DNA from: Spirochaetia bacterium
GTDB taxonomy: Bacteria > Spirochaetota > UBA4802 > UBA5550
Assembly: GCA_009885955.1 (NCBI GenBank)
Contig: VFJS01000043.1
Location: 1-64,000 of the forward strand
DNA: 64,000 bases
Direction of reading: 5' to 3'
Below, piece by piece: positions 4,963-48,561 of the stretch. The translations under genes were made by a program, and so were the position numbers. The notes beneath the pieces were generated by a model. It worked only from the letters and a program-made list of their open reading frames with translations, was not told the DNA's origin and made no database searches. Numbering within the stretch: position 1 is the stretch's first letter; every line of letters begins with the position of its first letter.

Positions 4963-4999
4963 AAAATAATAAATTTGATAAAATTCAGGTGTCCCCGCT

Positions 5000-5977
5000 A
5001 TGGATAGATTTTACCGCATTGCACAGGATATACTCAAGGGATATGAAATAACCTTTCCCGAGGCCCAATCTTTGATGGAAACGGCTGACAAAGACGTCCT
5101 CAGCCTTGTTTTTGCAGCCAATACCATCCGTGAGCATTTCACGGGGAAATTTGTGGATCTCTGCTCTATCATCAATGCAAAGTCGGGAAACTGCAGCGAA
5201 AACTGCTCCTTCTGCGCACAGTCGTCGCACCACAAGACTGAAATAAAAAAGTACCCGCTCCTTGACAGCAATGCCATCATAGCAAGGTCACGGGAGGTAT
5301 ATGCCTCGGGTATCAAACACTTCGGAATTGTAATCGCAGGGAAGGGCGTGACGCCGAATGACTTCACCAGGGTAGTGGAAACCGTTTCCATTATTAAGGG
5401 CGAGATAAAGGAGAGCCAGACCATAGACTGCGGCCTGGGCCTTCTCACTCCGGCTCAGGCCGGGGAATTACGGGATGCCGGCGCCGGAATTTACAACCAC
5501 AACCTGGAATGCTCCAGGTCCTACTTTCCCGAGATGTGCACAACGCACACCTACGATGAAAGGGTTGAGACCATACGGAATGCCCACGAGGCCGGACTCC
5601 TCACCTGAGTCGGCTGCATATTCGGGCTCGGCGAGTCTGACAAGCAGCGGGTGGAAGTGGCATTTGAAATAAAAAACCTGTGTACAACGGCTGCCATCCC
5701 GCTTAATTTCCTGAACCAGATAGAAGGGACCAGGACCTACGGCCGCCCCAAACTGAGGCCCCTTGAAGTCCTGAAAATCATCTCCGTATTCCGGTTCATC
5801 TTCCCGGACAGGAAGCTCCGCATGGGCGGCGGCCGCGAAGTCAACCTCCGTGACCTGCAGCCCCTCATGTTTCTTGCGGGAATCAACGCCACGATTACGG
5901 GCAACTACCTCACCACTACGGGCAAGGATACCGGGGAGGATATGAGGATGATCAGTGACCTGGGGCTGGAGGTTTGA
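5000..5977 (+). CDS. bioB: Biotin synthase with in-frame UGA (probable selenocysteine 203)
   Basis: Radical SAM enzyme that inserts sulfur into dethiobiotin, the last step of biotin synthesis, in the cytoplasm. The frame runs 325 codons, close to the usual 320-350, with one internal UGA at 5606-5608 (codon 203) and a normal UGA stop at 5975-5977. C65-x3-C69-x2-C72 binds the radical SAM 4Fe-4S cluster. YNHNLE and GGGREVNLRDLQP are diagnostic BioB motifs. UGA 203 aligns with the Cys of the family motif C-S-G-x-I-x-G-(L/M) (E. coli Cys188, an auxiliary-cluster ligand); here the motif reads U-V-G-C-I-F-G-L. Cys97 of E. coli is Gly109 here and Cys128 is shifted to C144, so this is not a classical 2Fe-2S type I enzyme. 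It resembles the anaerobe type II BioB described with an auxiliary 4Fe-5S cluster. The alternative reading is a Cys-to-UGA nonsense mutation. Confidence 0.85.
5613..5648 (+). promoter_or_regulatory. Candidate bacterial SECIS hairpin in bioB
   Basis: Immediately after the UGA at 5606-5608 and a 4-nt spacer, GCTGC (5613-5617) pairs with GCAGC (5644-5648). An asymmetric internal loop (ATAT / CAA) follows. An upper 8-bp stem TCGGGCTC (5622-5629) pairs with GAGTCTGA (5633-5640), including two G-U pairs, and is closed by a GGC triloop. The apical loop begins 22 nt after the UGA and starts with G. Both properties match the published bacterial SECIS pattern of loop distance about 16-37 nt and G among the first loop bases. 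Confidence 0.7.
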
Positions 5978-44597: not shown

Positions 44598-45464
44598 CTA
44601 TTTATACCCCTGGACCTGCCTGAAAATGCTTATGAATATGGTCCTCCCTTTTAGAGTGATATTTTTTATCTCCACGGGGAGTTCATCTATTACATTTGCC
44701 TGATATTGATTCCACTTCAGTTCCCCTTCATACCTGCAGCCGGCAATATATTTGCCAATCCAGTAAAGAACCCCTCCATTAAAGAGAATGATCAATACAA
44801 AAAACGGAATGGCGATAAACCTCACTCTTACCAGGTCAAAAAACCTGCTTATGATAACAGCAGGCAGCGATAGTGCAGCTGCGCCAGCCAGTATCCACAT
44901 GATCTTGATGTCGTACCATCCGATGAGGGACCATCCACCGTTTCTTACGAACTGGCCCCCATCCTTCATGGGGAAAAAGAGGGGAATTCCTTTCCAAACG
45001 CTGGGCGGTTGAGGGAGATCACATAATAAATGTGAAGAACCGGAAATAAATGCAAAAAGTAAAAACAAAAAAAAATGTTTAGGAGAGATAGGGGCAATAA
45101 CATATTTCAAAATAATGACTTCTGATTTTTCTCCTGTCACTTTTTTATGAAAATATTTTAATAGATATTTCCAATAACCTGTGAATACTCTTATAAAAAC
45201 TGATAATAATGAGATGGATACGACTACGATACATGCCAGTACTGCCACACCAAGGAAGGAGTGAGTCACGCCCCTGTGCCCGATCATGGGATCAGTTGAT
45301 GTATATACCCCATAGAATGAATCAATATCGGGAATTATTGCCATTAAACCCATAATAAAAAAAATCTTTATATAGGTGTACCAGTTTTTTCTAAAAATAC
45401 CCATTAAACTATAGAATATATTTGCGCATGATATGCCTATGAGAAAATGTTCCGGAGGTGTCAT
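44598..45464 (-). CDS. YdjM/DUF457-family membrane-bound metal-dependent hydrolase
   Basis: A 288-residue protein with several membrane helices. MIPDIDSFYG and IGHRGVTHSFLGVAVL supply the family's D-x-D and H-R-G-x-T-H metal-site motifs, and SHLLCDLPQ the later H-x-x-x-D. The substrate is unknown; E. coli YdjM is LexA-regulated. It overlaps neither neighbour but lies 5 nt after the gene upstream (45470-46948) on the same strand. Confidence 0.8.
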   Translation of the reverse strand: MTPPEHFLIGISCANIFYSLMGIFRKNWYTYIKIFFIMGLMAIIPDIDSFYGVYTSTDPMIGHRGVTHSFLGVAVLACIVVVSISLLSVFIRVFTGYWKYLLKYFHKKVTGEKSEVIILKYVIAPISPKHFFLFLLFAFISGSSHLLCDLPQPPSVWKGIPLFFPMKDGGQFVRNGGWSLIGWYDIKIMWILAGAAALSLPAVIISRFFDLVRVRFIAIPFFVLIILFNGGVLYWIGKYIAGCRYEGELKWNQYQANVIDELPVEIKNITLKGRTIFISIFRQVQGYK

Positions 45465-45469
45465 ATATG

Positions 45470-46948
45470 CTACTTCAGCTCCTTCCGGGTGCCTGCACCG
45501 GTATCGTTCATCCAGTCATAGAGGGGCCTGTATATCCCGGCCGGCGCGCTCCCGGCAAAATATATGTCGGCATGGGCATAATCGTATAACCGGAGGAACC
45601 TGACCTTATCAATGGTAATACCGCTCTTGCCGAAAAACCACTGCAGTCCCGCCGGGACCGAGTCCCCCACATTGTTGGTACCGGTAAGGATATAGAACAC
45701 CGGGAGCCTGTTCTCCCTGTTCACAAAGACATTCATCTCAGGGCAGTTGAAGTCGCACTTCCCGAGCAAAAAGTAATCCAGGAGAACCTTCCTCGGGTAA
45801 AAATATTCCCAGAATGTCCCCTTTGAACTGTAGGCCCTTATGACACCGGCAAGGCTGGTCACATCGCCCCCCTTCAGGTCCGATACCCATTCCACGGGCT
45901 TCCCCATCTTTTCAGAGGGAGGGAGATCCGACGCAACGAAATTTCCGGACCTCAGGAGATAGGCGAAATCGCCCCGTACCCTGGCCGGGTACCTGTCTAT
46001 GTCAAGGTCGTACAGCCAGCCGACAAGCGCCATGTTGGTTATGCCCCTGGATAGTATCTCGGCCGGGAGTCTGAAGACTTCAGCTAAAGGGCTCTTCTCG
46101 CCGGGCTTCAGCCATGCCATGTGGATTGCCAGGTTATGGACCACAAGGGAGGGATAATACTTCATGTAGAGATGGTTCCCTTTCATGAGCTCCTCCTGCT
46201 GTTTTATGTTCCTGTCATTCCCTCTGAGATCATTCTGGATTGTCCCCCATTCCGGATTCTCATCGAGGAAGACCATCCCTTTCAGGTCCAATGAACCGAA
46301 ACCTGTTTTAAACCGGTAATTTGAATACATCATGACATATTCAACACCATCGGACCATCCTCCCATAAAGATATTTTTACTGAACTTCTTCGCCTCCTCC
46401 ACAACAGCCTTAACATCCTCCATCTGGACGTCAAGACCCCAGTGCCTTGTAAACTCCTCGGAACAGAGGATATAATTGGCGCTGGTATTCATCTTCTTAA
46501 GAAGCCTATCACGGCTTTTCGCATCCTTCACAAATTCATCCATATCCCTGGCAAGTCCGTCGCGATCCTCAACGAGGGACTGCCTCCTGTTCACCGACCA
46601 TACTTCGATATTTTTTCTCATGACCAGGTCCACGGCCATCCTTTCAAACCATGCGGTATCCGCGACATATCCTGACACCAGCACCAGGAGGGGCATATCC
46701 ATGTTCTTCTGGCCCTTCAGGCTGTATCGGATATACCCGACCCTGTTGAAGTCATCGGGTGTATTACGTTCACTGAACCCTTTTATTATCCTTTTTTCAA
46801 CAACCACTTCCAGCGGGTTTGCCGCATCACTCTTCCCGGCCGGATCCTTATCCGACGAACCGGTTTTTTTGCCGCAGTCCGAAAGGATCTGCACCGCAAG
46901 GAAAACCGGTAGAAATGCCAGTAGTTTCCATACATGCCTTTTTGTCAT
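45470..46948 (-). CDS. Alpha/beta-hydrolase-like lipoprotein
   Basis: A 492-residue exported protein whose signal sequence ends in a lipobox (ILSDCGKK). Segments such as PLLVLVSGYVADTAWFERMAVDLV (oxyanion-hole strand), NIFMGGWSDGVEYVMMY (nucleophile elbow G-x-S-x-G) and YDYAHADIYFAG (late His) match alpha/beta hydrolases. The substrate is unknown. It overlaps by 4 nt the upstream C39-like gene, so the two are coupled. Confidence 0.78.
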   Translation of the reverse strand: MTKRHVWKLLAFLPVFLAVQILSDCGKKTGSSDKDPAGKSDAANPLEVVVEKRIIKGFSERNTPDDFNRVGYIRYSLKGQKNMDMPLLVLVSGYVADTAWFERMAVDLVMRKNIEVWSVNRRQSLVEDRDGLARDMDEFVKDAKSRDRLLKKMNTSANYILCSEEFTRHWGLDVQMEDVKAVVEEAKKFSKNIFMGGWSDGVEYVMMYSNYRFKTGFGSLDLKGMVFLDENPEWGTIQNDLRGNDRNIKQQEELMKGNHLYMKYYPSLVVHNLAIHMAWLKPGEKSPLAEVFRLPAEILSRGITNMALVGWLYDLDIDRYPARVRGDFAYLLRSGNFVASDLPPSEKMGKPVEWVSDLKGGDVTSLAGVIRAYSSKGTFWEYFYPRKVLLDYFLLGKCDFNCPEMNVFVNRENRLPVFYILTGTNNVGDSVPAGLQWFFGKSGITIDKVRFLRLYDYAHADIYFAGSAPAGIYRPLYDWMNDTGAGTRKELK

Positions 46949-47868
46949 AATTGTTTCATATCCTTTTTAATATCTTTGATGATATACCCCGACCGGGAAT
47001 ATTCGCCCCCTTCAATGATGAAGGGTATGCTCTGCCTGTCAAAAAGATTGCAGCCATTCTTCGTGACTTTGCTGTAGACAGGCGTCAGGGTAAGCATACT
47101 GAAAGGGAGCGTCTCATGAATCTCAAATTCAAAAACATCTTCCACGGGGTCATAGGACTTAATCCCGGTTACCGTGCATGCATGTGCAAAAGTTAAATTG
47201 TTATACAGGACAGCTTTGGGGTATTTTTTTGAAGGCCCCATCCAGACCTGGGTATAGATGAAAACATGGTGCCCCTTTTTTACAAGATAAACCAGTTCGT
47301 CCATGTTTTTAATGGAATACCAACTGTACGTATCGCCGCTGCTGCCGTTTATTTTGACATTGATCTCATTTAGTATCCTGCCGGTGAGTGGAACACTTCC
47401 GGTATGGAGCCCCCACTGTTTCACAAAATCGATACCCCCCAGGTGTTTTATGAATTCCGGAATATCCCAGCTCCCCGGAATCATACCGGAAAATTTCATG
47501 GCATTCAGCCTGCCGCTGAATATGCAGTTTTCGGTATATTTGAGCCACGATATTGGAGAGAGGAGCTTTTCATTGGGGGGGACAATCCAGGTCTGAACGG
47601 TCCTGTCATATTTTTTCGGGTCTGAAACCATTTGAAGGCTTCTGACAGGCCTGTCGGCTATCGATTTCACTGCGCGTTCCTTTTCAATGACAGCCATTAT
47701 CCTGTGAATAGAAAAGATAACCAGCCATAGAACAAGCAGTGTCCCGGAAAAAACTGCAAAAGCCATGGAATATATCTTCAGGCATTTCTTTAATCCAGGT
47801 ATGGAAAAAAACCTGGAATGCACCTCTGCTGATGCTGTTAATCCGGATAAATCCTTTGGTTGGTTCAT
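46945..47868 (-). CDS. C39-like cysteine peptidase-family membrane protein
   Basis: A 307-residue protein. One membrane helix (about residues 33-57) precedes a likely periplasmic domain. Cys in TENCIFSGRLNAMKFSG may be the nucleophile and His in FAHACTVTGIKSYDP (about residue 225) the base, with Asp in the same loop; together these match the C39_2 type. The gene start is clear at MNQPKDL. It is the first gene of the 47868-44598 group. Confidence 0.6.
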   Translation of the reverse strand: MNQPKDLSGLTASAEVHSRFFSIPGLKKCLKIYSMAFAVFSGTLLVLWLVIFSIHRIMAVIEKERAVKSIADRPVRSLQMVSDPKKYDRTVQTWIVPPNEKLLSPISWLKYTENCIFSGRLNAMKFSGMIPGSWDIPEFIKHLGGIDFVKQWGLHTGSVPLTGRILNEINVKINGSSGDTYSWYSIKNMDELVYLVKKGHHVFIYTQVWMGPSKKYPKAVLYNNLTFAHACTVTGIKSYDPVEDVFEFEIHETLPFSMLTLTPVYSKVTKNGCNLFDRQSIPFIIEGGEYSRSGYIIKDIKKDMKQL

Positions 47869-47950
47869 TGTATATTACGCATGTTACCTATTCAGGCCGC
47901 TGAAAAAACCGGCTCCACGCCGATAATCTCCGGGATTAATTATCCGCAGT

Positions 47951-48355
47951 TCATTTAATCACAATCTCTGCCGAAATCTTCAGTTTAACAACAGACTCTG
48001 CAGGATCATTGGTATAGACCCTGATTATTTTTTCAACTTTTCCGAGACGGTCACTGGTATCGAATTTCACTTCCACTTTCCCCTCGCCGCCGGCCGGGAC
48101 CTCCTTATCTGAAAGGAGAGCTGCTGTGCAGCCTCACCCTGCATCTATCTCCCTTATATAGAGAGTTTCACCGCCCGTATTTTTAAAGATAAATACATGG
48201 GTAACCGTTTCTCCCTGTTTTATAACGCGGAAATCATGGCTCTTCTCCTTGAAAAATATCTGAGCCTCGCCGGCTGAGAGATATACCCCTGTTCCAAAAA
48301 CAGAAAGGATATAAGCGGCTATTATAATCATTTTAACCGGTCTGAACATAGTCAT
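47951..48355 (-). CDS. Exported DUF1573 protein with in-frame UGA (probable selenocysteine)
   Basis: The frame upstream of the UGA (48134-48136) encodes a signal peptide (VKMIIIAAYILSVFGTGVYLSAGEA) and the first half of a DUF1573 domain (FFKEKSHDFRVIKQGETVTHVFIFKNTGGETLYI). In the same frame below the UGA the rest follows: GCTAALLSDKEVPAGGEGKVEVKFDTSD, then VYTNDP and IVIK, ending in UGA at 47951-47953. DUF1573 has the conserved motif (S/A)-C-G-C-T; here it is G-U-G-C-T, with UGA for the first Cys. With the start at MTM (48355) it has 134 residues and U74; an earlier start at 48364 is possible. The role of DUF1573 is unknown, but a U-x-C redox or metal site in the periplasm is implied. A nonsense mutation is the alternative. 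Confidence 0.75.
48100..48119 (-). promoter_or_regulatory. Candidate SECIS hairpin in the DUF1573 gene
   Basis: Downstream of the UGA on the minus strand, UCUCCUU (48119-48113) pairs with AAGGAGG (48106-48100) around the loop UCAGAU. There are seven pairs, one of them G-U. The loop starts 22 nt after the UGA, the same as in bioB. The first two loop bases are U and C, so it does not meet the G rule of the usual consensus. A second small hairpin GCUGC/GCAGC lies directly after the UGA. Confidence 0.45.
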
Positions 48356-48561
48356 TTCTTTCATTCCCGAATATTCAAATCTTATCAGGTACAATATTAT
48401 TACAATCAAAAATAGTCAATAAAAATATCAAGGGGAAAATGCCCGCCTCATTGCCATAGTACATATGAAATTCCCTGAAACAAAATTACCGGGAAGGCAT
48501 ATATTTGATTTGACTCCCGGAAAAGCCGGAGTTAAGAATGAATGCCTGAAGGGATATTATA

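Follow-up and report, generated by a model that had tools for sequence, protein, structure and literature searches.

The window, the 64,000-nucleotide stretch of a Spirochaetia bacterium contig analysed here, contains a small DUF1573 gene on the minus strand with an in-frame UGA (47951-48364, probable ATG start at 48364, stop UGA at 47953-47951). Between 48409 and 47951, this minus-strand frame was interrupted by a single internal stop, the TGA at 48136-48134, before the terminal TGA. When this stop was read through, the product matched Pfam PF07610 with 89.1 bits over residues 53-148, above the membership threshold of 26.1 bits, and the match crossed the stop. An earlier note on this DNA had described a DUF1573 domain split by one UGA (48134-48136) with both halves in the same frame, and this description was borne out. 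The range given in the note extends to 48409; the TTG found there is only a mechanical start of the open reading frame, and the gene probably starts at ATG 48364, with ATG 48355 and 48349 as plausible alternatives. The UGA occupies the first position of a U-G-C-T motif, where it would be read as selenocysteine, and the TGC codon of the partner cysteine lies at 48128-48130 (minus strand) and was invariant across 30 aligned sequences.

The N-terminus of the window's DUF1573 protein is hydrophobic, and, judging by its sequence, the protein is probably exported. A lipobox was present in many relatives, which are presumably lipid-anchored, and absent from the window's member. In the mature window protein, the U-x-C pair holds the sole cysteine. 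A weak terminator-like hairpin followed by a T run was found 3' of the gene by a consensus scan only (47908-47924, minus strand). Further 3', at 44598-47868 on the minus strand, are genes for a 307-aa protein, a 492-aa probable lipoprotein and a YdjM-like protein; for the first two, Pfam yielded no match up to E 1. The 307-/492-aa pair likewise follows the UGA gene in one relative (G006), where the third gene agrees by length and place only.

A second in-frame UGA (5606-5608) was observed in the bioB gene of the window (4982-5977, plus strand; TIGR00433, 366 bits), in the context GLLT-U-VGCIFGLGES. This UGA probably corresponds to Cys188 of E. coli BioB, a ligand of the [2Fe-2S] cluster. The RNA 3' of this codon folded well (z -3.06 versus a synonymous null), and none of the 18 other above-cut-off bioB matches in relatives had an in-frame UGA. 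The earlier note had counted a second UGA-for-Cys replacement in an unrelated family of the window; this is most likely the one in bioB, and it is real too. Part of a group II intron (RF02003, 54 bits) also lies on the minus strand of the window, at 9-125.

A PF07610 profile search of 59 genomes, including that of the window, found DUF1573 genes interrupted in frame by a UGA in 32. In all the copies read, the UGA lay at the identical cysteine codon, the first of the CGCT motif as the earlier note had proposed, and was followed by Gly-Cys in all except one decaying copy. Since 32 of the 59 genomes have such a gene, always with the UGA at that cysteine, its position is not due to chance. The note had called for a search of relatives for DUF1573 genes with UGA in this motif, and they thus proved to be numerous. 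It had also named loss of frame in the downstream half as grounds for refutation; the frame was kept, and dN/dS 3' of the UGA was 0.11-0.44 across the 25 closest pairs, a sign of purifying selection and hence of a downstream half that is both translated and retained. When 393 genomes sampled from the phylum were searched, nearly all matches at E 1e-12 belonged to the family and order of the window's genome.

Forms with cysteine in place of the UGA were found at the glgX-linked locus described below in three genomes (G001, G007 and G031) and elsewhere in the genome in three others (G008, G017 and G056). On a tree of the family, the Sec and Cys labels needed about four changes, and the deep forks were poorly supported. 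One glgX-linked copy, G045b (L078; G045:C234:4108-4425), had UGR for UGC and a second in-frame TGA and is probably a decaying selenoprotein gene. Moreover, a separate clade of UGA-containing DUF1573 genes was observed (L074-L083; G020:C22, G031:C175, G032, G033:C76, G040 and G045:C89; tree support 100/100), which is without glgX linkage and coexists with a glgX-linked copy in G020, G031, G033 and G045.

The earlier note would have abandoned its reading had the genome lacked selenocysteine machinery. The set proved to be complete: the window's genome encodes a tRNA-Sec (70.9 bits, anticodon TCA), selA (492 bits) adjoining selB (295 bits) on contig C112, and selD (365 bits), which has an in-frame UGA of its own. 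A tRNA-Sec of at least 69.9 bits was found in all 32 genomes with a UGA-containing DUF1573 gene, and one above 60 bits in 8 of the 27 genomes without such a gene (Fisher p 1.6e-9 for co-occurrence, not corrected for kinship).

A putative SECIS hairpin region lies directly 3' of the UGA (48101-48133, minus strand), with an apical stem CTCCTT/AAGGAG at 48118-48101. To evaluate folding, the 42 bases 3' of the UGA were compared with random synonymous versions of each gene's own sequence. The window hairpin had a minimum free energy of -15.1, versus a synonymous mean of -8.9 (z -2.42). Sec genes folded beyond this null (mean z -1.95, n = 25), whereas their Cys homologues exhibited no extra folding (mean z +0.21, n = 8); the Mann-Whitney p of 2.5e-5 for this comparison is too small, because the sequences are related. 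When 65 bases of the window gene were compared with their own dinucleotide shuffles, z reached only an unremarkable -0.67. The register of the stem differed between genes, RNAalifold across relatives gave no useful consensus, and covariation counted in two fixed registers across relatives was not clearly above controls in either. The hairpin is likely, rather than proven, to be a SECIS element, because folding against the synonymous null was good but fixed-register covariation was not seen and the shuffle z was small.

The next downstream gene was glgX (TIGR02100) in 26 of the 36 Sec loci. In the window's genome, homologues of glgX lie on contigs other than that of the DUF1573 gene; for this reason we rejected the operon as a clue to function and claim no functional link with glgX.

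A structure model computed from 30 aligned sequences (pLDDT 91.9) exhibited an Ig-like beta-sandwich, with U-G-C at residues 53-55 of the model, between strands 44-50 and 56-60. Foldseek matched it to a Porphyromonas protein of unknown function (PDB 2qsv), to HYDIN-type domains and to PDB 2e6j, and no thioredoxin-like fold was among the best matches. A sequence search of the PDB with the DUF1573 protein returned no match, and we found no paper assigning an activity to a DUF1573 protein.

Taken together, these data lead us to regard the product of the window gene, with high confidence, as a small selenoprotein that is exported and belongs to the DUF1573/OS_HP2 family, a confidence that does not extend to its chemistry. 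SelB and Sec-tRNA(UCA) would decode the UGA at 48134-48136 as selenocysteine, with the assistance of the hairpin directly downstream. The product would be a single Ig-like (HYDIN/PapD-like) beta-sandwich domain bearing Sec-Gly-Cys in a loop before a strand, and its N-terminal signal would export it. A nonsense mutation or sequencing error, leaving a pseudogene or the N-terminal half alone, could also place a UGA in the frame, and G045b, with its UGR and second UGA, is one relative copy that does appear to be decaying. The identical UGA codon in 32 genomes and the purifying selection 3' of it strongly disfavour this explanation, and according to the model a truncated product would be without about half of the beta-sandwich; we consider it very improbable. 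Even less credence is due to a genome-wide reassignment of UGA to Trp, Gly or Cys. UGA would indeed be a sense codon at the DUF1573 site under such a code; however, 15 of the 43 large ORFs in the window terminate at TGA, as does the DUF1573 gene itself. TGA thus serves as a normal stop there, and UGA is therefore not reassigned. The full Sec machinery in the genome and the cysteine of homologues at the UGA site also argue against reassignment.

The role of the U-G-C motif is less certain. Given that the window protein is a selenoprotein, a redox role seems somewhat favoured, soft-metal binding clearly less probable, and any other role rather improbable. As a redox centre, the U-x-C pair would be a thiol/selenol site cycling via a selenenylsulfide, which would form between the neighbouring U and C because the mature protein has no other cysteine. 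The rival, in which the motif coordinates a soft metal such as copper or mercury, is somewhat unlikely, although an exported beta-sandwich with a CxC-type pair fits metal delivery and no thioredoxin-like fold was among the structural matches. Against it, the invariant columns of the 30 aligned sequences revealed no evident conserved metal ligands besides U and C, and selenocysteine is mostly found at redox sites. With somewhat less than even probability, exported and in many cases lipid-anchored DUF1573 selenoproteins would form a Spirochaetota branch that spans the order and constitutes an unrecognised extracytoplasmic selenol system for redox or metal chemistry, missed by current annotation. 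Its loci would be of several kinds: those linked to glgX, those of the window's type and those of a third clade.

DUF1573 selenoproteins have been known since about 2007, and the window gene is a further example rather than a new kind. PMC9312934 and PMC13188914 list members with UGC in tables that refer to a 2007 study of an Olavius symbiont; in the GOS survey (PMC2398784), OS_HP2 corresponds to pfam07610, with a UxC motif, two Sec sequences and 354 Cys homologues. The family, for which few Sec members such as these two had been recorded, now has a set of 36 sequences, and at one locus Sec and Cys have been exchanged naturally; what the CGCT motif of DUF1573 does thereby becomes testable. Searches of viral contigs found no relative of the DUF1573 selenoprotein, and those of plasmids returned distant matches only, all below 60% identity.

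The closest known system is OS_HP2, represented by the NCBIfam model NF041425. The window gene shares with it the domain and the position of Sec at the first cysteine of CGC, Sec decoding being predicted for the window gene. Scores against this model were 92.3 bits for the window protein (86.3 in the genome search) and 65-95 bits for the eleven members of the Spirochaetota branch tested (the window protein and ten relatives), all below the cut-off of 100, which suggests that genes of this type would remain split at the UGA under the current cut-off. What is new is this Spirochaetota branch below the cut-off, together with its usual position directly upstream of glgX, a linkage absent from the window gene. 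The DUF1573 Cys proteins of Bacteroidota and other groups, with distant matches in Bacteroides and Parabacteroides, have the same domain, and Cys forms occupy the glgX locus of three relatives too; they differ in having Cys for Sec and in the RNA 3' of the codon, which exhibited no special folding in the eight tested. The Ig domains of the HYDIN/VesB/PapD-like group (PF22544, 57 bits; PDB 2qsv and 2e6j) are not selenoproteins, and their resemblance to the window protein is one of fold alone.
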